Shown piece by piece: positions 23,766-35,583 of a stretch of 64,000 nt of DNA. The DNA is taken from contig NZ_SOHJ01000011.1 in NCBI RefSeq assembly GCF_004403185.1, positions 62,001-126,000 of the forward strand. The letters run 5' to 3'. Position numbers and translations under genes: made by a program. The DNA is from Cryobacterium suzukii. GTDB taxonomy: Bacteria; Actinomycetota; Actinomycetes; Actinomycetales; Microbacteriaceae. Numbering within the stretch: the first letter of the stretch is position 1; every line of letters begins with the position of its first letter. Under the pieces are notes generated by a model. That model had not been told where the DNA came from. It ran no database searches and saw only the letters and a list, made by a program, of their open reading frames with translations.

Positions 23766-25172
23766 CTAGACCATGGTCAGCACGCGCGCCGGGTCGGCGA
23801 GGATCGTGCCGATGTCGGCGAGAAAGCGGGAACCCTGCTCGCCGTCGACCAGTCGGTGGTCGAACGACAGGCTGAGCGTGAGCACCTTGCGCAACGCGAC
23901 CTCGCCGCGATACTCCCACGGCCGAGAGCGGATGGCGCCCATCGCGAGAATCGCCGCCTCCCCGGGATTCAAAATAGGCGTGCCAGCGTCGATGCCGAAC
24001 ACTCCGATATTGGTGATCGTGATGGTGCCACCGGACAGAGCCGCCGGAGTCGTCGTGCCGGCCCGGGCTGCCGTCGTGAGCTCGGCGAGCGCCGCAGCGA
24101 GGCCGCGCAGGTCGAGCCGTTCAGCGTCGCCGATGTTCGGCACGAGCAGTCCGCGCGGTGTTGCGGCAGCGACACCGAGGTTCACGTAGTGGTACTGCAC
24201 GATCTCACCGGCCGGCTCATCCCACCGGGTGTTCAGCGACGGCGTGCGGGCCACGGCCAGGCAGAGCGCCTTAGCTACCACTGCCAGAATGCCGATCCCC
24301 GCATCGGCGAACTGCCGGTCGGCGCGCAGGGAATCGAGCAGCTCGACGGTCGGGGTGACGTCGATGGTGAGAAACTCGGTTACGTGTGGCGCGGTGAACG
24401 CGCTCTGCACCATGGCGGCCGCCGTGAGTTTGCGCAGGCTCTTGATCGGTGAGCGGGACTCGCGCACGTCGTCGCCGAGGCTCGTGGCCGGCTGGGCAGC
24501 CGTCGCCCCGGGCTCGGCCCCGTGCAGGTCGGGGGCCGGCAACGACTCGGTAATACGGGCGCGAACGTCATCCCGCGTGATCAGGCCGTCCTTTCCGGTT
24601 CCAGTGACCATATTGAGGTCAATTCCGAGGTCACGGGCCAGGGCGCGCACCGGCGGCGTCGAGCGAGGTCTCTCCCGAGCGGGTGCCGCGACGGGCGGTT
24701 CGACGGATGCTGGGGCGGGTGCTGCAGCGGGTGGCGCCACGGATGCCGCGGCGGGCGGTTCGACGGATGCGGCGGGCACCGACGCATCCCCGGCGCCCGT
24801 TCGGGTACGACGCTGGGGGTGTCCGCCGCGCTCGACGGCGGGGCCATAGCCGACCAGATTGGCCTCACGCTGCTCGACCGGAGCCGGAGCCACAGCATCC
24901 GTTTTCAGCGTCGAATCTGTGGGCTCATCGGCCCCGCCGATGTCGAAGGAGACGATCGGTTCGCCGACATGCACGACCACCCCGGCCGGCTGGTGCAACA
25001 CGCGCACGACTCCGGCAAACGGGCTTGGCAGTTCGACGACAGCTTTGGCCGTTTCCACGTCGGCGATGTGCTGGTTGAGCGTGACCGCATCGCCCGGCGC
25101 GACGAGCCAGGCCACAATCTCGCTCTCGGTGAGACCCTCACCGAGATCGGGCAGCTTGAATACCTTGATCAT
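23766..25172 (-). CDS. bkdC: Branched-chain 2-oxo acid dehydrogenase E2 (dihydrolipoyl acyltransferase)
   Basis: 468 residues. Lipoyl domain 1-77 with the lipoyl Lys in DVETAKAVVELP; an Ala/Pro-rich flexible linker with repeated SVEPP/AAAP units near 125-170; an E1/E3-binding domain (VRALARDLGIDLNMVTGTGKDGLITRDDV) near 175; and the CoA acyltransferase core ending in SFDHRLVDGEQGSRF with the catalytic His and Asp. Coupled to bkdB by ATGA overlap. The E3 gene is not in the window. Confidence 0.95.
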   Translation of the reverse strand: MIKVFKLPDLGEGLTESEIVAWLVAPGDAVTLNQHIADVETAKAVVELPSPFAGVVRVLHQPAGVVVHVGEPIVSFDIGGADEPTDSTLKTDAVAPAPVEQREANLVGYGPAVERGGHPQRRTRTGAGDASVPAASVEPPAAASVAPPAAAPAPASVEPPVAAPARERPRSTPPVRALARDLGIDLNMVTGTGKDGLITRDDVRARITESLPAPDLHGAEPGATAAQPATSLGDDVRESRSPIKSLRKLTAAAMVQSAFTAPHVTEFLTIDVTPTVELLDSLRADRQFADAGIGILAVVAKALCLAVARTPSLNTRWDEPAGEIVQYHYVNLGVAAATPRGLLVPNIGDAERLDLRGLAAALAELTTAARAGTTTPAALSGGTITITNIGVFGIDAGTPILNPGEAAILAMGAIRSRPWEYRGEVALRKVLTLSLSFDHRLVDGEQGSRFLADIGTILADPARVLTMV

Positions 25173-26227
25173 CGGCGCCCCATAACCCGGTCGACACCGT
25201 CGAGAATGCGGTCAAGATCGGGCAGGTGGTGGCTTTCCAACTTGGCTGGCGGGTACGGCACGTCGAAGCCGGTGACCCGCACCGGCGCGGATTCCAGAAA
25301 GCTGAAGCAGCGTTCGGTGATGGTCGCGATGATTTCCCCGCCGAGACCGCCCGACTGCGCCGCCTCGTGGGTCACAACGAGCCGCCCGGTCTTCCGAACG
25401 GATGCCTCCACGACCGCATAATCCACCGGTGACAGCGACCGCAGGTCGATGACCTCGATCGAGATGCCCTCGTCGTCGGCGGCGAGCGCCGCGTCCCGCG
25501 CGGTCGTCACGAGCGCTCCATAGGCGAGGAGTGTGACATCCGTTCCGGGGCGCACGATGACGGCCTGCTCCATCGGGAGCCCGAGCTCTGGCACGACCTC
25601 GCCTTTCACGTGGTAGCGGCGCTTGGGCTCGAAGTAGAGCACCGGGTCGTCGCTCGCGATGGCCTGCCGAATAAGACTGTAGGCATCCTGGGCGTTGGAG
25701 ACGGCGATCACTCGAAGGCCGGAGGTGTGGGTGAAGTAGGCCTCTGGCGATTCGGAGTGGTGTTCGGCCGCTCCGATTCCGCCGCCGAACGGCACCCGGA
25801 TGGTGATCGGCATGCGCACGGCGCCCTGGGTACGGTAGTGGAACTTGGCGACCTGGCTGACGATCTGGTCGAAGCCGGGAAAGATGAAGCCGTCGAACTG
25901 AATCTCGCAGACCGGGCGATAACCGCGATAGGCCAGGCCGACGGCGGTGCCGATGATCGCGGATTCGGCGAGCGGGGTGTCGATGACCCGGCGAGCCCCG
26001 AACTGGGCGAGCAGGTCGCTCGTCACCCGAAAGACTCCGCCGAGGGCTCCGATATCCTCGCCGAGCAGCACCACCTTGGGGTCGTCGAGCATGGCCTGCC
26101 GCAGACCCTCGTTGATGGCTTTGCCCATGGTGAGGGTTTTGGTCTCGCTCAGCGGGGTTGGTTGCGGCGCGTTGAGGCCGGGAACCGTTGACACGGTTGC
26201 CGGGGTCATCAGTGGGGTCATGGTCAT
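25169..26227 (-). CDS. bkdB: Branched-chain 2-oxo acid dehydrogenase E1 beta subunit
   Basis: 352 residues from ATG 26227, whose first base is the last base of the bkdA stop (TGATG); a GTG just upstream (26230) is the alternative. TPP-binding half of the heterotetramer with GEDIGALGGVFRVTSDL, PLAESAIIGTAVGLAYRGYRPVCEIQF and VPFGGGIGAAEHHSESPE. Part of the bkdABC operon. Confidence 0.95.
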   Translation of the reverse strand: MTMTPLMTPATVSTVPGLNAPQPTPLSETKTLTMGKAINEGLRQAMLDDPKVVLLGEDIGALGGVFRVTSDLLAQFGARRVIDTPLAESAIIGTAVGLAYRGYRPVCEIQFDGFIFPGFDQIVSQVAKFHYRTQGAVRMPITIRVPFGGGIGAAEHHSESPEAYFTHTSGLRVIAVSNAQDAYSLIRQAIASDDPVLYFEPKRRYHVKGEVVPELGLPMEQAVIVRPGTDVTLLAYGALVTTARDAALAADDEGISIEVIDLRSLSPVDYAVVEASVRKTGRLVVTHEAAQSGGLGGEIIATITERCFSFLESAPVRVTGFDVPYPPAKLESHHLPDLDRILDGVDRVMGRR

Positions 26228-27339
26228 CACGCCTTTCCGTTCTGTTCGGCAATATCGTGTTCCGCACTAAAACTTGTGAGGTACCCGGCGTAGTCGGCGC
26301 GCTGGCGCTCGAGGGTGGCGTTGGGGGTGGTGTAGACGTGGTCGAACACGCTCAGCGGTTCGGGGTCGGGCATGCCGATGCAGCCAGCGCGTAGTTCGGC
26401 GGCTGCGGCATCGGCCAGCGCCGCAGTGGCCGCCTCCACCTCGGGTGTGATTTCACCGAGGCTGGTCAGCAGCCGGTGCAGACGCAACAGGGGGTCGCGC
26501 GTCTTCCACTCGGCCAGTTCCGCCGGGTCTCGGTAGCGGGTGGGGTCATCCGCTGTGGTGTGCGGTCCCATACGGTAGGTGACCGCTTCGATGAAGGTTG
26601 GGCCGCCGCCGGTGCGAGCCCGGTCGAGGGCCATGCGGGTCGCGGCCGTGACCGCGATCACGTCGTTTCCGTCGATGCGCAGGCTGGGGATGCCGAAGCC
26701 CGGCGCGCGATCGGCGATGTTGCGGTGTGCCTGCACCCCGACCGGCTCGGAAATGGCCCACTGGTTGTTTTGGCAGAAGAAGACCACCGGGGCCTGGAAG
26801 CTCGCCGCGAAGACCATGGCCTCGTTCACGTCGCCCTCGCTCGTGGCACCGTCACCGAAGTAGGTGATGGCGACGGAGTCGACATCGTCGCGCTGGGCAC
26901 CGAGCGCCCAACCGGTGGCGTGCAGGGTTTGCGCGCCAATAATGATGGCCGGGGTGGCCATATTGACCGTGTACGGGTCCCAGCCCGACAGAGCGTTGCC
27001 GCGCCAGACCTTGACAATGTCGGTGACATTCACGCCACGGCAGTACGCGACGGCGTTCTCGCGGTAGCTCGGAAAGATGAAGTCGTCACTGCGCAGGGCC
27101 CGGGCCGAGCCGATCTGGGCGGCTTCCTGGCCGAGCAGCGGCGGCCACAGACCGAGTTCACCCTGGCGCTGCAGGGCTGTCGCCTCGGTGTCGATGCGAC
27201 GCACCACGACCATATCTCTGTAGAGCGCCAGGAGGGCCGCGCCGTCGAGATCTTCAACCCACGAGTCGAAATCGCCGCGGGGTATTCGCTCGCCGTCAAT
27301 CGAGAGAAGCTGCACGAGCTGAGGGGAAAAATCAATCAT
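26227..27339 (-). CDS. bkdA: Branched-chain 2-oxo acid dehydrogenase E1 alpha subunit
   Basis: 370 residues. The thiamine diphosphate motif GDGATSEGDVNEAMVFAASFQAPVVFFCQNNQWAIS is complete. Decarboxylates the 2-oxo acids of Val, Leu and Ile, feeding isovaleryl-CoA to the neighbouring leucine operon. GGAG lies 6 bp before the ATG. The upstream region holds TTGACA on the minus strand but no clear -10. Divergent from the Lrp-type gene. Confidence 0.95.
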   Translation of the reverse strand: MIDFSPQLVQLLSIDGERIPRGDFDSWVEDLDGAALLALYRDMVVVRRIDTEATALQRQGELGLWPPLLGQEAAQIGSARALRSDDFIFPSYRENAVAYCRGVNVTDIVKVWRGNALSGWDPYTVNMATPAIIIGAQTLHATGWALGAQRDDVDSVAITYFGDGATSEGDVNEAMVFAASFQAPVVFFCQNNQWAISEPVGVQAHRNIADRAPGFGIPSLRIDGNDVIAVTAATRMALDRARTGGGPTFIEAVTYRMGPHTTADDPTRYRDPAELAEWKTRDPLLRLHRLLTSLGEITPEVEAATAALADAAAAELRAGCIGMPDPEPLSVFDHVYTTPNATLERQRADYAGYLTSFSAEHDIAEQNGKA

Positions 27340-27456
27340 GGGGAGCTCCGAGCGTCATTGCTAAAGTTGTCGTGAGCCTATGTCGACCCGACAGGGAGCA
27401 CAACCACTGTCAAAAAAAGTGAGCAGAGTGCCCTATTCAGGCTCGCCAGAGCGTGT

Positions 27457-27470
27457 TAATATTTTGCACT
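27457..27470 (+). promoter_or_regulatory. -10 element placing transcription start at the Lrp gene ATG
   Basis: TAATAT (27457-27462) ends 8 bp before the ATG, with no Shine-Dalgarno between them, which fits a leaderless mRNA. No clear -35 is visible. Confidence 0.5.
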
Positions 27471-27935
27471 ATGTACAGCCTTGACAAGACCGACACAAAG
27501 CTCCTCCAAGCACTCTCCGACGACCCGCGCAGTACTTTCGTTGCGCTCGCCGACACGCTGGGACTTTCTCGCAATACCGTGCAGGCGCGCATGAAGCGAT
27601 TGGAAGACTCTGGTGCCTTTCTCGGCTTCGATCGGCGCATCAATCCAGCCACCCTCGGCTACCCGCTGACCGCGTTCATCGAGGTGCACGTGCAGCAGAA
27701 GCGGCTCGCCCAGATCGTGATCGACCTGGCCCTGATCCCGGAAATCGTGCAGGCGCACGGCATGAGCGGTCAGGCCGACTTACTCGTGCGGGTGGTCTGC
27801 ACGGATGCCGCCGATCTGTTTCGCATTGACGGTACGATTCTCGCCTGCGACGGCGTGGAGCGCACTGAGACATCGCTCGCGATGGGCGAAGTCATCCCCT
27901 ATCGCCTCACACCGCTGCTCGACCGCCGCGGGTAA
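27471..27935 (+). CDS. Lrp/AsnC-family regulator of the bkd operon
   Basis: 154 residues from ATG 27471. Winged HTH: DKTDTKLLQALSDDPRSTFVALADTLGLSRNTVQARMKRLEDSGAF; then a RAM effector domain (TAFIEVHVQQKRLAQIVIDLALIPEIVQAHGMSGQADLLVRVVC). It is divergent from bkdA, an arrangement seen for BkdR-type regulators that sense branched-chain amino or oxo acids. The bkd link is inferred. Confidence 0.9.
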   Translation: MYSLDKTDTKLLQALSDDPRSTFVALADTLGLSRNTVQARMKRLEDSGAFLGFDRRINPATLGYPLTAFIEVHVQQKRLAQIVIDLALIPEIVQAHGMSGQADLLVRVVCTDAADLFRIDGTILACDGVERTETSLAMGEVIPYRLTPLLDRRG

Positions 27936-28132: not shown

Positions 28133-28618
28133 ATGAGTTTCCTGCGATTGGCCACCCTCATTCGGCACGGCTCCCGCATTGCCGAACCGGCGCCGCCTGC
28201 CCCGCCGCTGTTTGCAGGGGCTGAGGCGTTTGGTGGCAGCGTGCAGGTGCGGTTCATCAATGCCGGTGGCTGCAACGATTGCGCGCTCGAGGTGGCCGCC
28301 GCATTCGGTCCCGTCTACGACGTGGAACGCTATGGCGTGCGCCTGGTTCCCTCGCCGCGGCACGCCGACGTGCTGCTCATCGTCGGCAGCGTGACCCGCA
28401 ATATGGCCCAGCCGATGCTGCGCACCATCGAGGCCACTCCCACTCCCCGGTTCGTGATCGCGGTCGGTGATTGCGCCCTGCACGGCGGCGCCTTCCGCGA
28501 GGGCTACGGCATCATCGGGCCTGTTTCCGATTTTGTGCACGTGGATATCGAGGTGCCGGGCAGCCCGCCAGAGCCGACCGATATTGTGCGGGCCTTGCGC
28601 CGGATGACCGGCCGATGA
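28133..28618 (+). CDS. NuoB/HycG-like small subunit lacking the fourth cluster cysteine
   Basis: 161 residues from ATG 28133, with GGGGA upstream. Corresponds to M. tuberculosis Rv0082. In complex I and group 4 hydrogenases four Cys bind the N2-type [4Fe-4S] cluster. Here Cys47 and Cys50 (GGCNDC) and Cys113 (GDCALHGGAF) are kept, but the position of the last Cys is Ser144 (VPGSPPEP). Other family landmarks (GSVTRNM) remain. The cluster may be Ser-ligated, altered or absent. Overlaps the next gene by ATGA. Confidence 0.88.
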   Translation: MSFLRLATLIRHGSRIAEPAPPAPPLFAGAEAFGGSVQVRFINAGGCNDCALEVAAAFGPVYDVERYGVRLVPSPRHADVLLIVGSVTRNMAQPMLRTIEATPTPRFVIAVGDCALHGGAFREGYGIIGPVSDFVHVDIEVPGSPPEPTDIVRALRRMTGR

Positions 28619-30627
28619 CCGGCATTGAAGCAGGATTGCTCCTGCAACTCGGCCTCGGCGCACTGGCCGTGGTGACCGCCCTGACGGCAGCACCGTCTCT
28701 GCGGTCGCGGGCGGTCGGCATCCTCTGCACCCTGATTGCGGTGACCGGCTTTCTGACCGGTCTCGGGGCCATGCTCGGCGCCACCGGTGGACTGCGCATT
28801 TCCATGGCCCTGCCGATGGACCCGCTCGTACTGGCCCCCGACCGCCTCGGCGGCCTGTTCATGCTGATCGTCTCGGGTGTGGGCATTCTCGTGTCGCTCT
28901 ACTCGATGAGTTCCACCCGCGGACCCGACGCGAGCCGCACCGCCTGGGTCGCCATGCCGATGTTCCTCGTTGGCATGCAGCTGGTGCCGGCCGCGACGGA
29001 TTCGGTTTCATTTCTGCTGGCCTGGGAAGTCATGACCCTCGGCTCGACCATGCTGCTGCTGGCTGACCATGCCAGCCGCGCGACGGTCGCCTCGGCGGGA
29101 ATCTGGTACTCAGCGATGTCGCAGCTGAGCTTCTTCTTCATCCTCGCTGGCTTCGCCGTGCTCGCCGCCGCGTCGGGCGGTACGAGCTTCAGCAACCTGC
29201 AGGCGATCGAACCCGGGCCCGCGAACGTAGCGTTCGTGCTGCTTTTGCTCGGTTTCGGCGGCAAGGCCGAACTCGTGCCGCTGCACGTTTGGGTGCCCCG
29301 AGTGCTCCCCGAAGCTCCCAGCCACGTCTCGGCCGCGATGAGCGGCGCCATGGTCAAGATCGGCGTCTACGGCGGCCTGCTGGTGTGCGTTCGGCTGCTG
29401 CCAGACGGCCCCGCCTGGTGGGGCATCGCGATCATGGGGGTGGGCGGTGCATCCGCCCTCTACGGCATTCTGCAGGCTTCCGTGTCCAGCGATCTCAAGG
29501 TACTGCTGGCCTACTCGACGACCGAAAACATGGGCCTGGTCTTTCTCGGACTCGGCGCGAGCATGCTGCTGCGCGGTTACGACGCGCAAGCGGCAGCGGA
29601 TGCCGCGCTCGTGGCCGCCCTGCTCCTCGCCGTCAGCCACGCGGCGTTCAAATCGACGCTGTTCCTCGGCGCCGGGGCCATCATCCACGCCACCGGGGAA
29701 CGCAACCTCGACCGGCTCGGCGGGCTCGGCGCCCGCATGCCCGTCACGGCCGCGGCGTTCGGCATCGCCAGCCTCGGCGCCGCCGCGATCCCAATCACGA
29801 GCGGTTTCGTCGCCGAGTGGATGCTGCTGCAATCACTCATTCACGGCGGTCGCCTCGACGGGGCGGTCGTCTCGGTCGCGGCATCCGTTGCCATGCCCCT
29901 CGCTGTCGCTGTCGTCGCCCTCACCGCCGGCCTGGCCCTGCTCACCTTCGTCAAGGCCTACGGCATCGCATTTCTGGCCCGACCGCGCAGTATCGAAGCA
30001 GCGGATGCCCGTGAGGTGCCGCCGCTCATGCAACTCTCGCTCGCCCTCGGCGCCCTCTTCGTGCTCGCCCTCGGGCTACTCCCCGGACCGATTGCCGCGC
30101 TCGTCGCGCACACCGTCAGCTCAAACCCGGGCGCCGCCGTGCAGTCCGTCGGCCTCGGCGGCGTCTCGCTGCCGGGTATCGGAGCGGTGCTCGACCCGAT
30201 CATGCTCGTTGTGCTGTCGGCGCTGGTCGCCATCCCGGTGATCGTCTCGATCATCGTGTCGGCCCGTCGGTATCCACATCGCACGGTCGACCTGCCCTGG
30301 GGCGGCGGCGGCTCCCGGGCGAGGCCGCGTATGCAGTACACCGCGACCTCCTACGCCGAGCCACTCGTGCGAGTCTTCGACGACGTGCTCAAACCGTCGC
30401 GCGACGTGCAGGTCACCCACGTGGCCGAGTCCCGATATCTGGTGGAACGGGTGCGAGTGGAACAGCGCGTCTCTGACGTCTTCGAAACCCGGCTGTATCG
30501 ACCGGTGCTCAACCTGGTCCAGCGCTACGGAATCGTCGTGCGCCACGTCGCCAACGGCAGCATCCACCGCTACCTGTCCTATTCTTTCGTTGCTCTTCTC
30601 ATCGTGCTGATTGTGGTCTCGCTATGA
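28615..30627 (+). CDS. HyfB/NuoL-like proton-translocating membrane subunit
   Basis: 670 residues, ATG 28615. Mrp-antiporter-type subunit with about 15 membrane segments. The proton channel family core is seen at LLLLGFGGKAELVPLHVWVPRVLPEAPSHVSAAMSGAMVKIGVYG (ion-channel Lys and His) and in LLAVSHAAFKSTLFLGAGAII. A soluble tail of about 80 residues ends in a final helix. Equivalent to Rv0083. Overlaps both neighbours by ATGA. Confidence 0.92.
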   Translation: MTGIEAGLLLQLGLGALAVVTALTAAPSLRSRAVGILCTLIAVTGFLTGLGAMLGATGGLRISMALPMDPLVLAPDRLGGLFMLIVSGVGILVSLYSMSSTRGPDASRTAWVAMPMFLVGMQLVPAATDSVSFLLAWEVMTLGSTMLLLADHASRATVASAGIWYSAMSQLSFFFILAGFAVLAAASGGTSFSNLQAIEPGPANVAFVLLLLGFGGKAELVPLHVWVPRVLPEAPSHVSAAMSGAMVKIGVYGGLLVCVRLLPDGPAWWGIAIMGVGGASALYGILQASVSSDLKVLLAYSTTENMGLVFLGLGASMLLRGYDAQAAADAALVAALLLAVSHAAFKSTLFLGAGAIIHATGERNLDRLGGLGARMPVTAAAFGIASLGAAAIPITSGFVAEWMLLQSLIHGGRLDGAVVSVAASVAMPLAVAVVALTAGLALLTFVKAYGIAFLARPRSIEAADAREVPPLMQLSLALGALFVLALGLLPGPIAALVAHTVSSNPGAAVQSVGLGGVSLPGIGAVLDPIMLVVLSALVAIPVIVSIIVSARRYPHRTVDLPWGGGGSRARPRMQYTATSYAEPLVRVFDDVLKPSRDVQVTHVAESRYLVERVRVEQRVSDVFETRLYRPVLNLVQRYGIVVRHVANGSIHRYLSYSFVALLIVLIVVSL

Positions 30628-31565
30628 ACGCCATCATCATCGCCGTAGTGCAGGTCGTGCTGTTCGTCTTCCTCGCCCCGGTATTGATCGGGGTAATCCG
30701 ACAGGTGCGGGCCACGATCGAAGGCCGAGCCGGAGTCGGAATCTGGCAGCCATGGCGCGACGTGCGCAAGTTGCTGGCAAAAAACCCGGTGCGAGCCACC
30801 GACAGCAGCTGGATGCTGAGGGCAGGCCCGGTCGCCCTGGTCGTGTCCAGCCTGCTGCTGTGCGTGCTGCTCCCGTTGGTGGGCACCATTCCCTTGGCTC
30901 TAGTTCCCAGCGACCTGTTCGTCATCGTCTCCGTCATGCTGATCGGCGTCGTGGCCCTCGCGCTCGTCGGCCTGGACGGCGGAACCGCCTTCGGCGGCAT
31001 GGGCTCCAGCCGGCACATGACCGTCGCGGCGCTTGTTGAACCAACCCTGCTGCTCTCGATTTACGCATTTTCGATCCCGGCCGGAACCAGCACCCTGTCG
31101 GTCATCGTTGAAACCCGGCTGCTCTCCCCCGAGCTAATCATCTCGCCGGTCAGTGTGCTGGCCCTCGTCGCCCTGTCGATCGCGATCATGGCCGAGACCG
31201 CCCGTCTTCCCATCGATAATCCAGGCACCCACCTTGAGGTGACCATGCTGCACGAAGCGATGATCCTCGAAGCGAGCGGGCGTGACCTGGCCTGGCTCGA
31301 AGTCGGCTCCTGGCTGAAGCTGGCGGTCCTGCTCGGCCTGGTCAGCAACCTGGCGGTGCCGTGGGGCGTAGTGACGGATTTCAGCGCCCTCGGCCTACTG
31401 ATCGGCGTCGTCAGCATCGTCGTGAAGGTACTCCTACTCGGCGTGTTGTTGAGTGTCGGCGAGATTTTTCTGGCCAAGGTGCGTCTGTTCCAAGTGCCGG
31501 AGCTGCTCGCCGGCTCGTTCGCCCTCGCCTTCCTCGCCGTCACCGCCTCCTACCTGGTCGCCTGA
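30624..31565 (+). CDS. hycD: HycD/NuoH-like membrane subunit
   Basis: 313 residues, about 8 membrane segments. NuoH-type anchor that connects the soluble arm to the pump modules. The cytoplasmic loop AETARLPIDNPGTHLEVTMLHEAMILEASGRDLAWLEVGSWLK, with its acidic residues that form the quinone-pocket entry in complex I, is intact. Equivalent to Rv0084. Nine bp before the next gene. Confidence 0.93.
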   Translation: MNAIIIAVVQVVLFVFLAPVLIGVIRQVRATIEGRAGVGIWQPWRDVRKLLAKNPVRATDSSWMLRAGPVALVVSSLLLCVLLPLVGTIPLALVPSDLFVIVSVMLIGVVALALVGLDGGTAFGGMGSSRHMTVAALVEPTLLLSIYAFSIPAGTSTLSVIVETRLLSPELIISPVSVLALVALSIAIMAETARLPIDNPGTHLEVTMLHEAMILEASGRDLAWLEVGSWLKLAVLLGLVSNLAVPWGVVTDFSALGLLIGVVSIVVKVLLLGVLLSVGEIFLAKVRLFQVPELLAGSFALAFLAVTASYLVA

Positions 31566-31574
31566 GGAGCATCC

Positions 31575-32234
31575 GTGTTTGAGAACATCTACCCCCAACT
31601 CATCGGTCTGTGCGCCGGCGCCCTTCTACTCACGAGCGCGCTCATGGTCTGGCGACACTCCCTGCTCGCATCGATTCGACTACTCGCGCTGCAAGGCATA
31701 GCCCTCGCCGCTCTCGTGGCGGTCATTGGGATCGCCGAGGGCGAGTCTGAACTGGTAATCGTGTCGCTGCTCATTCTCTCGGTCAAGGGCATCGGCCTTC
31801 CCTGGGTCCTCGCCCACCAATCCAAGGCATCCATCAAGCAAATTCAGGAATCGCCCCGGCTCAACCCGACCGCTGCGCTCCTGACGGTCACCGTGTTAAC
31901 CATCCTCAGCTATATCGTCGTCAGTCGTGTCTTCGGTCTCGGCGACAGCAGCACCGGTCATGCCGCCCCGATCGGCCTCGCCATGGTGCTCATCGGGTTT
32001 CTGCTGCTCATCAGCCGGCGCCGTGCCCGATCGCAGCTCATCGGTTTTCTGGTGCTCGACAACGGCATCGCCACCATTACGTTTCTTACCAGCGGAGGGG
32101 TGCCGATTCTGCTTGAATTCGCGTTCTCCCTCGATGTTTTGCTGGTGGTGCTTATTCTGCATGTATTCGCGGGCCGCATGCGCACCAAGTTCGGCGGCAC
32201 GGCCGTCGATCAGCTCAGGGAGTTGCACGATTGA
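31575..32234 (+). CDS. hycP: HyfE/HycP-like membrane subunit
   Basis: 219 residues, GTG start preceded by GAGGAG. About six membrane segments with a NuoK-like core (LGLAMVLIGFLLLISRRRARSQLIGFLVLDNGIATITFLTS). Equivalent to Rv0085. Its TGA stop overlaps the next ATG by one base (TGATG). Confidence 0.88.
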   Translation: MFENIYPQLIGLCAGALLLTSALMVWRHSLLASIRLLALQGIALAALVAVIGIAEGESELVIVSLLILSVKGIGLPWVLAHQSKASIKQIQESPRLNPTAALLTVTVLTILSYIVVSRVFGLGDSSTGHAAPIGLAMVLIGFLLLISRRRARSQLIGFLVLDNGIATITFLTSGGVPILLEFAFSLDVLLVVLILHVFAGRMRTKFGGTAVDQLRELHD

Positions 32235-33682
32235 TGTCGTTAATATTGTGGATTCCGTTAGTCGGCCCGCTCGCCCTCGCCGGGCTCAGCCTGCTACTGG
32301 GCACCTCGGCGCTCCGCCGTTTCGTCGGCGTCGCTGCGTCGAGCGCTGTCTTGATCTCCGGCCTGCTGCTGGTTAGTGCCGTGCTAAACGGTGCCGTGCC
32401 CGAAAGCGGTGGCGGCATGCTGCGCGCCGATGCCCTCTCGGCCTACATGATCAGCGTCGTTGGAGCGGTCGGCCTCATTTCAACCTGGGGCGGGCTCAGC
32501 AGCGCCGCATCGAGCCGCACAAAAGATGCCGCGAGCTACGAGGCCCTCATCGCCCTGTTCCTGGCTGCGATGTCCCTCGCCGTTCTCGCCGACAGCATCG
32601 GTCTGATGTGGGCCGCTGTCGAGGCCACCACCATCGCCACCGCTTTCCTCGTGGGTCACCACCGCACCGGTCGCTCCCTCGAGGCGGCGTGGAAGTACGT
32701 CATCCTCGGATCGGTCGGCGTGGCCATCGCGCTGCTGGGCATCGGCTTTATCTACGCCGCGTCCGTCAGCACCGACACCCCCACGCTGTCCTGGCTACTG
32801 CTCAGTCAGTCAGACCTCGGCCTCGACCCGGCGCTCATCACCGCCGGCGGCGCCCTCGCGGTGCTCGGTTTCGCGACCAAGGCCGGCCTAGCTCCAATGC
32901 ACAGCTGGCTGCCGGACGCCCACAGCCAGGCACCCGCGCCGGTCTCCGGCCTCATGTCGGGCGTGCTGCTCTCGGTCGCTCTTTACGCCATCCTGCGCAT
33001 CCAGTCGATCACCAACCTCGTGATCGGCCCGGAGTTTCTGCGCATCATGCTCAGCGTCGGCGGCCTGCTCTCCCTGCTCGTGGCCGCGTCGCTGCTCATT
33101 CGCCAACGCGACTACAAGCGGATGCTTGCCTATTCCAGCATCGAACACATGGGCCTCATGGCCATCGGGGTTGCAATCGGCCCGGCCGCGCTCCCCTCGG
33201 TGCTGTTGTACGTTCTGGGCCACGGCCTGATCAAGGCAACCCTGTTCGTGATCTCCGGGCGCATCCTCAAGGTCGAGGGCACCCCGGTGATCTCGGACGT
33301 GCGCGCCCTGCTGGTGCGACGGCCCGGCCTCGCCGTGCCGTGGCTCATCGCGATGGCAGCCATCGTCGGTTTTCCGCCGTTCAGCATCTTCTTCTCCGAG
33401 GTCGGCATTATCATGGCCGGCTGGTCGGTGGGCCTCGGCGGCGTCGTCGGAGCGGCCCTCGTGCTGCTGCTCGTGATCTTCGCCGCGTTTACCCGTTTGA
33501 CCGTTCAGATGACACTCGGCGCTCCCCCCGTTGGCCTTGCGTTCACTCCCGACTACTCGGCCCATGGCCCGCGCCTGCCGATCTTTTTGGCCCTGGCGAC
33601 GACGGCGACGGTCGCGTTCGTCGCCGAACCGGTCGGCACTCTTCTGCTGCAGGCCACAGCCGTTCTGGGAGGTACCAACTGA
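32234..33682 (+). CDS. hycQ: HyfF/HycQ-like proton-translocating membrane subunit
   Basis: 482 residues; ATG 32234 overlaps the previous stop. NuoN/M-type antiporter subunit with about 14 membrane segments. Channel residues are in LGFATKAGLAPMHSWLPDAHSQAPAPVSGLMSGVLLSVALYAI and RDYKRMLAYSSIEHMGLM. Equivalent to Rv0086. The next gene again starts at TGATG. Confidence 0.93.
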   Translation: MSLILWIPLVGPLALAGLSLLLGTSALRRFVGVAASSAVLISGLLLVSAVLNGAVPESGGGMLRADALSAYMISVVGAVGLISTWGGLSSAASSRTKDAASYEALIALFLAAMSLAVLADSIGLMWAAVEATTIATAFLVGHHRTGRSLEAAWKYVILGSVGVAIALLGIGFIYAASVSTDTPTLSWLLLSQSDLGLDPALITAGGALAVLGFATKAGLAPMHSWLPDAHSQAPAPVSGLMSGVLLSVALYAILRIQSITNLVIGPEFLRIMLSVGGLLSLLVAASLLIRQRDYKRMLAYSSIEHMGLMAIGVAIGPAALPSVLLYVLGHGLIKATLFVISGRILKVEGTPVISDVRALLVRRPGLAVPWLIAMAAIVGFPPFSIFFSEVGIIMAGWSVGLGGVVGAALVLLLVIFAAFTRLTVQMTLGAPPVGLAFTPDYSAHGPRLPIFLALATTATVAFVAEPVGTLLLQATAVLGGTN

Positions 33683-35211
33683 TGCGTGATGAACGAACGC
33701 CGCAAGACCTGGCCGCCGATAACCTGGCTGCTGATGGAACCGAACTGCGAGCCCTGGACCGCTCCCAACTACCGAGCGCCGCCGGCGCACTGCTGGATGC
33801 CGGTAGCCGCCTGGCCCTGGTCGCCTGCCACGAGGACGACGACGACTTTCGCATCGTTTACTCCTTCGTCGGAGCCACCCCGTCACTGCGCGCAGACCTC
33901 TCGGTCAGAGTGCCGCGGAACGACGCCTGGATTCCCAGCCTCGCCGAAATATCCCTGTCAGCAGGCAACTTCGAGCGCGAAATTCGGGACCTGTACGGTG
34001 TCGTTCCCCGCAATCACCCGCAGCCCCATCGTCTCGTGCGCCACGGTCACTGGCCACGCGGCTGGTACCCGATGCTGCGCGCTAGCGCCGTCGTGCCCGA
34101 GTTCGAGCCTGACGTTGAGTCATTTCCGTTCGTGCCGGTGGAAGGCCCCGGTGTCTACGAGATCGCGGTCGGCCCGATCCACGCCGGCATCATCGAGCCC
34201 GGTCACTTTCGGTTCTCGGTGGTCGGTGAGACCATCGTGCGAATGGAAGCCCGCCAGTGGTACCTGCACCGCGGTGTCGAGAAGGTCTTCGAGGGCAAGA
34301 CCGCTGCCGAGGGCGTGCTTTTGGCCGAACAGATCAGCGGTGACACCGCCGTCGGCCACTCCCTCGCCTTTGTCATGGCGGTCGAGCAGGCAGGCGGAAT
34401 TGAGGTCTCCGAACCAGACCGGCTACTGCGTGCCCTGCTGCTCGAGCTCGAACGCCTCTACAACCACGTGACCGATCTCGGCTCGCTCGCCAATGACGTC
34501 GGCTTCGGCATCATCGACGCGCACGCGCAGGGCCTGCGTGAGCGGCTGATGCGCATCAACAAGTCGGTCACCGGGCATCGTCTGCTGCGCGGTGCCCTCA
34601 GCGTCGGCGGCACGCGCGTGACCACGCTCCCCGACGCAGCCGAGCTCACCAGCGTGAGCGCAGCCATGGCCGAACTGGTCGGCATCACGCTGGGCCACGC
34701 CATCGTGCGCGGTCGCTTCACCGGAACAGCCCGGTTGCCCAAAGCCCAGGCGACCACGATTGGAACACTCGGCTACGTCGCCCGCGCATCCGGTATTGCT
34801 TCCGATGCGCGCTCCGAGCATCCGTTCGTCAACCTCGGTGAGGGTTTTCATGTTGTCACCGAAGAGGGCGGCGACGTTCTCGCCCGGTATACCGTGCGCG
34901 CACGCGAACTCGAGGTGTCGACCGCCGTCGTGCTCGACCTGCTGCTACGTCTGCGGGGTCATACCGGGACGGCGTTCAGCGTGAACCCAGCCTCGACCGG
35001 CACCGGCCTGGCCCTCGTGGAGGCCTGGCGGGGTACGACGACACACCGCGTCGAACTCGCCGCCGACGGCAGACTCAGCCGGGTTAAAATCGTCGACCCG
35101 TCGTTTCTGAACTGGCCCGCCGTGCCGCACGCCCTGTCGGAGACGATCGTTCCCGACTTTCCGCTCGCAAACAAGAGTTTCAACCTCTCCTACGCCGGAA
35201 ACGATCTGTAG
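33682..35211 (+). CDS. hycE: HycE-like (NuoC-NuoD fused) large subunit without Ni-Fe ligands
   Basis: 509 residues. N-terminal NuoC-like domain (to about 130, NFEREIRDLYGV), then a NuoD/hydrogenase large-subunit domain with GPIHAGIIEPGHFRF (163-177) and WYLHRGVEKVFEGK (193-206). The two CxxC motifs that hold Ni-Fe are gone: residues 218-226 read ISGDTAVGH (Cys positions S219, T222) and 472-478 read DPSFLNW (S474, N477). So it cannot bind a standard Ni-Fe centre. Equivalent to Rv0087. Ends 15 bp before the convergent ArsR gene. Confidence 0.92.
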   Translation: MRDERTPQDLAADNLAADGTELRALDRSQLPSAAGALLDAGSRLALVACHEDDDDFRIVYSFVGATPSLRADLSVRVPRNDAWIPSLAEISLSAGNFEREIRDLYGVVPRNHPQPHRLVRHGHWPRGWYPMLRASAVVPEFEPDVESFPFVPVEGPGVYEIAVGPIHAGIIEPGHFRFSVVGETIVRMEARQWYLHRGVEKVFEGKTAAEGVLLAEQISGDTAVGHSLAFVMAVEQAGGIEVSEPDRLLRALLLELERLYNHVTDLGSLANDVGFGIIDAHAQGLRERLMRINKSVTGHRLLRGALSVGGTRVTTLPDAAELTSVSAAMAELVGITLGHAIVRGRFTGTARLPKAQATTIGTLGYVARASGIASDARSEHPFVNLGEGFHVVTEEGGDVLARYTVRARELEVSTAVVLDLLLRLRGHTGTAFSVNPASTGTGLALVEAWRGTTTHRVELAADGRLSRVKIVDPSFLNWPAVPHALSETIVPDFPLANKSFNLSYAGNDL

Positions 35212-35226
35212 ACAGGCTGACAGCGC

Positions 35227-35583
35227 CTAGCCAGCTGTCGTCGAGGACTCTTCCGTTTCGAGGTGGCGGAGCAGAGCGTGCGAGTCGGTCAGGTTGGCCA
35301 GCACCATGCGCTTGGCTGCGGCCAGCAGCTCAATCGAGCTCGCATCTCGCAGGGCATAGAAGATGGAGTTGCCCTCCCGGCGCGTCACCACCACACCGGC
35401 GCGACGCAGAACGCCGAGCTGCTGGGACAGATTGGACAGCTCGCAACCGAGCGCCTCGGCTAAACTGCCGACCGAGCGTTCACCGGAAACGAGCTGTTCC
35501 AGAACCTGCACGCGCAACGGATGTCCGAGGGACTTGAACAAGTCAGACTTCAATTGGGCGACGGATAGACCAGAGGAGAGCAC
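35227..35583 (-). CDS. ArsR-family regulator (Rv0081-like)
   Basis: 118 residues, GTG start. Winged HTH: LFKSLGHPLRVQVLEQLVSGERSVGSLAEALGCELSNLSQQLGVLRRAGVVVTRREGNSIFYALRD. The metal box of classical ArsR (ELCVCDL) is replaced by ALGCELSNL, so a non-metal signal is likely. Rv0081 lies next to the same gene set in M. tuberculosis and responds to hypoxia; here the gene is convergent with it rather than leading it. Transcript appears leaderless. Confidence 0.88.
   Translation of the reverse strand: MLSSGLSVAQLKSDLFKSLGHPLRVQVLEQLVSGERSVGSLAEALGCELSNLSQQLGVLRRAGVVVTRREGNSIFYALRDASSIELLAAAKRMVLANLTDSHALLRHLETEESSTTAG

Follow-up and report, generated by a model that had tools for sequence, protein, structure and literature searches.

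Six genes in a 64,000-nucleotide stretch of the Cryobacterium suzukii genome (contig NZ_SOHJ01000011.1, positions 62,001 to 126,000; the whole stretch is called the window in the following, and it is part of a 3.46 Mb genome in 15 contigs) almost certainly encode an energy-converting hydrogenase-related (Ehr) complex, as judged from homology and motif content. The new point of the present analysis is the loss of ligands at the iron-sulfur (Fe-S) cluster of the small subunit. Cluster-ligand loss in Microbacteriaceae and in a clade of Patescibacteria type is independent. We read the operon as coding for an Ehr complex that translocates ions and has a redox input which may be weakened in Cryobacterium and probably lost in relatives, a reading for which belief and doubt are evenly balanced. 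The letters S, B, C, E, F and G denote the six subunits, labels of the form L### and G### denote loci and genomes, and one aligned sequence is called a row.

Cluster ligands of the small subunit in Cryobacterium

The six window proteins contain eight cysteine residues altogether (S 3, B 2, C 1, E 1, G 1), and the proximal cluster site in S is the sole Fe-S site among them. Its ligand positions are 47, 50, 114 and 144, and the window reads Cys, Cys, Cys and Ser.

28133..28618, + strand: small subunit S, HycG/NuoB-like, 161 aa (PF01058, E 3.1e-26; the family profile matches 7z0s_G and 6cfw_J)
28271..28282, + strand: S codons C47 to C50, first two cluster ligands, present
28472..28474, + strand: S codon C114, third cluster ligand, present
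28562..28564, + strand: S codon S144 (AGC), where the fourth cluster Cys would be

Matches to S were obtained in 39 of the 57 genomes of the genus, and the sequence is readable in 38 of them; in G401 (83% complete) it is frame-split. Residue 144 is never Cys in these 38 sequences, being Ser in 23, Asn in 12 and Thr in 3, and the complete four-Cys site (CCCC) is found in 63 Ehr rows of the tree described below. As Ser, Asn and Thr all occur at this position there is no single fixed replacement ligand, and the idea of S144 as one fixed serine ligand was rejected because sister species carry Asn and Thr. The cluster of Cryobacterium is probably an altered one, either [3Fe-4S] or [4Fe-4S] with an open iron. 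This ligand loss was absent from the first-pass annotation of the window, and no report of it in Ehr small subunits was found in the literature, in searches that were not aimed at small-subunit ligands.

Relatives with fewer or no cluster cysteines

Of 398 genomes of the family Microbacteriaceae, 12 have a G-type match (E 1e-60), and these belong to 4 genera. Two related operons of the family, L055 and L221, keep one of the four cluster cysteines. S of L221 reads GCAS at the ligand positions and S of L224 reads ACAS. The contigs of L224 and L055 are equally long, so L224 probably duplicates L055 and does not appear in the tree; L222 is without S. The second group is a clade of 13 rows, mostly Patescibacteria with the addition of a second operon copy in one Cryobacterium genome, which keep one or none of the four cysteines, and no other Cys column is common to 70% of the S rows of this clade. 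In Patescibacteria (the phylum of L107) 13 out of 285 genomes match: all eight Ehr operons with a readable S have one or none of the four cysteines, and the other matches are three hydrogenases with four Cys and two fragments without S. The cluster is probably absent in L055 and L221 as well as in the clade of Patescibacteria type.

The second copy in Cryobacterium belongs to genome G429, where a Patescibacteria-type operon with all six subunits, reading D, T, D, D at the ligand positions, lies on the same contig as an ordinary Ehr operon, with the two S genes 18 kb apart. It looks like horizontal transfer.

L172 (G429:C95:97000-105600), L204 and L205: second Patescibacteria-type Ehr operon

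At the ligand positions, S of L107, L111, L114, L118, L124, L125 and L196-L201 carries Asp, Thr, Ser, Glu or other residues, and most of these proteins share the features GSxNAxExEL, GDDAxxGG and GDPP. L090 (Rokubacteria, PCCC) is placed with the three-Cys group in the first tree described below but was not counted as a ligand loss, given that its S has Cys at 49 and 50 instead of 47 and 50; the two perhaps form a tandem pair of the complex I kind.

A first tree was calculated from the C, F and G columns of 94 rows having S, B, C, F and G, after 18 near-duplicate or partial rows had been removed by hand. In this tree (INDEPENDENCE) the 13 low-Cys rows form one starred clade and 12 Microbacteriaceae rows form another. 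A second tree under a mixture model comprised 43 of those rows, with L201, which has a very long branch, omitted, and a constraint joining both low-Cys groups was rejected by the approximately unbiased test with p 1.2e-66, a value that is only indicative because composition varies among many of the rows and the groups were chosen with the first tree already known.

Constraint on the operon and the ion path

Purifying selection acts on the Cryobacterium operons: the ratio of nonsynonymous to synonymous substitution rates (dN/dS) of the window genes against 17 Cryobacterium operons lies between 0.045 and 0.28 (F of L168 was too short for scoring). To locate losses, a column was regarded as family-invariant if it is at least 95% conserved in the 63 four-Cys Ehr rows, and as lost if the residue is left in at most 20% of the rows of a group. 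The 12 Microbacteriaceae rows lost 6 of 43 invariant columns in S (V42, D43, S46, E51, V83, C144) compared to 3 of 292 in the other subunits together (B 2/82, F 1/50, C 0/58, E 0/13, G 0/89), so that losses concentrate in S (Fisher p 2.0e-4). For the 13-row clade the losses amount to 4 of 43 columns in S (C47, P60, C114, C144) and 4 of 292 elsewhere (Fisher p 0.011).

We further considered 19 charged residues of the membrane subunits, which are proposed to carry ions by analogy with complex I: E138, K217, H224, K295, H342 and K346 of B; E131, K217, H224, H331 and K335 of F; and E139, E191, R194, D198, E205, E211, E216 and E280 of C. All 19 are kept in 12 out of 12 Microbacteriaceae rows. In the 13-row clade 17 of them are present in every row, and H224 of F and E216 of C in 12 out of 13 rows each.

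Ehr class and the former Ni-Fe site

The operon occupies 28133-35211 on the + strand; all six genes are intact, with neighbours overlapping or almost touching, in the order S-B-C-E-F-G.

28615..30627, + strand: HyfB-like antiporter-type membrane subunit B, 670 aa (PF00361; PRK06521 under its cut-off; 4-base overlap with S)
30624..31565, + strand: HyfC/NuoH-like membrane subunit C, 313 aa (PF00146)
31575..32234, + strand: HyfE-like membrane subunit E, 219 aa (PRK11492, E 8.3e-17, under its cut-off; no Pfam match)
32231..33682, + strand: HyfF-like antiporter-type membrane subunit F, 483 aa from TTG, with an ATG at 32234 (PF00361; PRK06458 under its cut-off)
33682..35211, + strand: large subunit G, HycE/HyfG-like and NuoCD-like, 509 aa (family profile against HycE 7z0s_E, E 6.2e-80)
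34336..34347, + strand: G codons S219-G220-D221-T222, former first Ni-Fe CxxC
35101..35112, + strand: G codons 474-477, equivalent to HycE 'TYAN'
35188..35199, + strand: G codons S503-Y504-A505-G506, true former second Ni-Fe CxxC, shortly 5' of the stop

The first-pass annotation had described six coupled genes of a group 4 hydrogenase or complex I-like system with a full membrane arm. Tight coupling on one strand, the family and profile homologies and the full length of the antiporter-like and NuoH-like subunits bear this out. Apart from G, no 49-kDa homologue was found in the genome of the window. C. levicorallinum (L053) and C. glaciale (L054) share 85% and 87% identity with G, and their S rows are similar to those of the genus group of the window.

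A profile built from 14 G sequences was aligned to HycE of Escherichia coli. S219 and T222 stand where HycE has its first Ni-Fe Cys pair, and the C-terminal NLSYAGND of G aligns with DPCYSCTD of HycE, so that S503 and G506 replace the second. All four cysteines had been reported as replaced in the initial annotation; this was right, as were S219 and T222, but the second pair had been placed at S474 and N477 in DPSFLNW, a candidate rejected here as this segment falls on 'aatyanW' of HycE. An alignment of 101 G sequences (the window, 20 loci and a further 80) shows no Cys at the four positions in 96 rows, the window included; two of these, L055 and L089, end before the second pair. The five real group 4 hydrogenases of the set (L110, L121, L126, L127, L132) have Cys at all four.

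The conserved motifs of the former pocket are SGDT, kept in 21 of 21 operons first compared, and SYAGND. D221 is a new acid next to the lost ligands, present in 97% of the 63 four-Cys Ehr rows and in all rows of the Microbacteriaceae group and the 13-row clade; the position holds V or A in the five hydrogenases and I in HycE and MbhL. D272 and D472 were rejected as further Ehr-specific pocket acids, since the row of the membrane-bound hydrogenase (MBH) carries D and E there, and only D221 stands.

HypD was matched in none of the 57 genomes of the genus, the window's own among them, with a control matching 4 out of 14; as far as HypD is concerned, the absence of Hyp genes stated in the first-pass annotation therefore holds genome-wide. 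Because all four Ni-Fe ligands and HypD are absent, it follows that the complex does not turn over H2, in agreement with the earlier view that it cannot be a standard hydrogenase. The absence of a ferredoxin subunit was likewise correctly seen, as no open reading frame of the whole window carries a Fer4-type CxxCxxCxxxC motif. Within 4 kb of the operon such a motif occurs in 6/8 hydrogenase operons and 8/69 four-Cys Ehr operons (five of those reading frames having at most 120 aa), in 0/25 three-Cys operons (a set containing L090, scored PCCC), 1/10 one-Cys, 1/6 zero-Cys and 0/1 two-Cys operons, and in 0/18 Ehr operons with an unread S.

The assignment to Ehr builds on a group 4-type large subunit without Ni/Fe ligands that occurs together with a small subunit, and on the antiporter-like membrane subunits encoded alongside. 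Our trees, which contain no published Ehr references, set the window apart from the real hydrogenases (five in the first tree, four in the second). Two papers describe Ehr complexes without Ni/Fe ligands (PMC6349859, PMC10284858), the latter calling their function unknown; a third notes that the metal-binding Cys are absent from Candidate Phyla Radiation (CPR) sequences (PMC7304191), and HydDB excludes Ehr as homologues not metabolizing H2 (PMC5037454). In the literature, the mycobacterial Rv0081-Rv0087 locus is already related to EHR complexes (PMC6728331), assigned to Ehr and termed not a functional hydrogenase. The missing ligands are therefore a feature of the class and no discovery, and the initial proposal of an undescribed energy-coupling system has to be withdrawn.

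Ehr is a widespread family. Matches to G at E 1e-80 or better occur in 33 of 394 genomes of the class, counting G114 and G201 (38-39% identity), whose motifs are unchecked. A contig-wide scan for the family confirmed at least 579 stretches, of which 80 were kept for analysis.

Interpretation and alternative explanations

The complex is a six-subunit, complex I-like membrane machine whose homology shows a common descent with group 4 [NiFe] hydrogenases. In the proposed mechanism its working part would be the translocation of ions by C, B, E and F. Binding of a ligand or a change of conformation at the pocket between G and S would gate this transport, and electron flow through the cluster may not be essential to it. 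If the machine were driven by electrons, loss of the last cluster should free pocket and membrane arm from selection; this is not so in two lineages, which favors a cluster-independent ion movement. Ligand loss at the last Fe-S site hints that Ehr machines may move ions without passing electrons. The long-range coupling of electron transfer to ion movement in complex I is a long-standing question, and a natural series of homologues that keeps arm and pocket but loses the last redox center could make the two halves testable apart. Such a series is also relevant to what Ehr complexes do, a class found in many phyla and in mycobacteria too.

With more doubt than belief, the same idea may be extended to Ehr complexes in general, which would be, or could become, redox-free ion movers. 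The cluster would have been dispensed with at least twice while pocket and ion paths stayed fixed, seemingly stepwise from four over three to one Cys in Microbacteriaceae, with Cryobacterium as an intermediate, and by exchange of Cys for Asp, Thr, Glu and others in the Patescibacteria-type clade.

Several observations weigh against the proposed mechanism. All 38 readable S sequences of Cryobacterium retain C47, C50 and C114, and L223 also keeps three of four (CCCS), which fits an altered cluster that is still being made. Some cluster-less S rows carry Cys elsewhere, up to three in all, and in L201, one of the eight Patescibacteria operons, a Cys lies two residues ahead of position 114 and another two residues ahead of position 144. 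Nor is the membrane arm wholly unchanged, since H327 of F (97% of four-Cys Ehr) is Tyr in 12/12 and Y100 of B is replaced in 11/12 Microbacteriaceae rows. Matches to molybdenum (Mo) oxidoreductases are found in 39/39 Ehr carriers and 16/18 non-carriers of the genus, so that a diffusible or unlinked donor is possible. The Mrp antiporter (MnhE) is present in 39/39 carriers and 14/18 non-carriers, and Ehr therefore fills no antiporter gap. A short-chain dehydrogenase cluster, belonging to a very large family, occurs in the flanks of 8 out of 49 actinobacterial loci, and four recurrent neighbor clusters (two actinobacterial, two from the other loci) are without annotation. In a Geobacter study, Ehr subunits are more abundant on formate than under hydrogen-containing conditions, and its authors suggest that they are connected with formate dehydrogenase and with the formation of hydrogen (PMC7894505).

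The main rival, which we rate somewhat short of an even chance, is a redox-driven pump in which the three-Cys cluster of S ([3Fe-4S], or [4Fe-4S] with a free iron site) would shuttle electrons between a soluble carrier and a substrate in the pocket, the cluster-less relatives having a separate, changed function. The three cysteines shared by Cryobacterium and L223 speak for it, as do Mo oxidoreductases able to feed a carrier in all Ehr carriers and the existence of three-Cys clusters elsewhere, namely the medial [3Fe-4S] of [NiFe] hydrogenases and aconitase. However, the close relatives L055 and L221 lost two of those three cysteines and retained the operon, no partner gene was recognised near it, and E51 of S, although invariant both in the four-Cys Ehr rows and in the 13-row low-Cys clade, is Ala or Pro in 12/12 Microbacteriaceae rows.

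A decaying relic that is leaving the genus is improbable. While 18 of the 57 Cryobacterium genomes are without an S match and genes are split in G401, the low dN/dS over 17 operons, the concentration of losses on the small subunit, and the finding that in 22 of 23 ordinary-type operon-scale loci (the exception being L171) no subunit falls below 85% of the window length speak against it. Very improbable is a [NiFe] hydrogenase with unusual ligands, which could refer to the clear HycE homology but is opposed by the 96 G rows without Cys, the missing HypD and the lack of a Fer4-type motif in the window. A sequencing error or mis-assembly that took out Cys codons is hardly credible, as AGC is indeed one base away from a Cys codon but non-Cys at 144 recurs in 38 genomes and SGDT in all operons first compared.

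Comparison with known systems

Gene names and order of Rv0082-Rv0087, with the regulator Rv0081, fit the operon according to a table in PMC6901956, in line with the gene order claimed in the first-pass annotation; this refers to the published table and not to the M. tuberculosis sequences themselves. The order S-B-C-E-F-G and a neighboring ArsR gene are also found in Mycobacterium persicum (L062), where the Ni-Fe ligands are absent as well. The mycobacterial operons L062, L065, L066, L067 and L074 keep all four cluster cysteines, whereas the window has S144 and its ArsR gene is convergent at the 3' end of the operon.

The large, small and membrane subunits are homologous to those of group 4 [NiFe] hydrogenases (HycE/HycG of the E. 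coli formate hydrogenlyase, FHL, and Pyrococcus MBH), from which the window differs by four replaced Ni-Fe cysteines, the new D221, the lack of a ferredoxin-type subunit and of HypD, and three instead of four Cys in S. With complex I the operon shares NuoB, NuoCD, NuoH and NuoL/M/N-type subunits and conserved charged membrane-arm residues; genes for NADH or ferredoxin input (NuoE/F/G, NuoI) are lacking in the operon, to which the search for NuoE/F/G was confined. When G is aligned with Nqo4 of Thermus thermophilus, G220 takes the place of the Tyr in RMDYLHSF, and no residue of G matches the second His in GPQHPSTH; both residues have a quinone role in Nqo4. Antiporter-like subunits are common to Ehr and Mrp, where they work without redox cofactors, as is proposed here for Ehr. 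Mrp is without S and G subunits, and a separate MnhE locus exists in the genome of the window.

Neighboring genes and possible partners

An ArsR match was found at 35 of 49 actinobacterial loci, at 34 of them no more than 300 bases from the operon. The gene is convergent to the operon in the window, and upstream on the same strand in many relatives.

35227..35583, - strand: ArsR/SmtB-family regulator (NF033788, E 8.4e-23), convergent on the operon 3' end

Neighbor clusters were defined as those present in at least five loci. Ten were obtained in the actinobacterial set of 49 loci, three of them without a Pfam match and two without annotation; besides ArsR and S the annotated ones include phosphoenolpyruvate (PEP) carboxykinase (six loci, one partial) and an ABC transporter (8). 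The PEP carboxykinase gene in the operon flanks of L050, L051, L057, L059, L064 and L084 is of the GTP-dependent type. The other set comprises 47 loci, and 16 of these have a sigma-54 response regulator. Among the annotated neighbors common to five or more loci, none was recognised as a gene for an electron carrier or a formate dehydrogenase. A 764-aa cluster considered as a linked electron donor was rejected, being an antisense reading of ArsR mixed with the PEP carboxykinase gene.

The genome of the window has five Mo-oxidoreductase matches, and the three that were identified, one FdhF/YdeP-family protein and two NarG, all lie outside the window. The earlier statement that formate dehydrogenase is absent agrees with this location, but with an FdhF/YdeP-family protein present it cannot be made for the genome. 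A dependence of Ehr on a Mo enzyme finds no support in the distribution given above, there being hardly any contrast between carriers and non-carriers, and a complementarity of Ehr and Mrp finds none in the distribution of MnhE.

Inspection by eye places two further elements next to the operon.

23766-27339, - strand: putative 2-oxoacid dehydrogenase genes (E1 alpha, E1 beta, E2)
27453-27935, + strand: putative divergent Lrp/AsnC-like regulator

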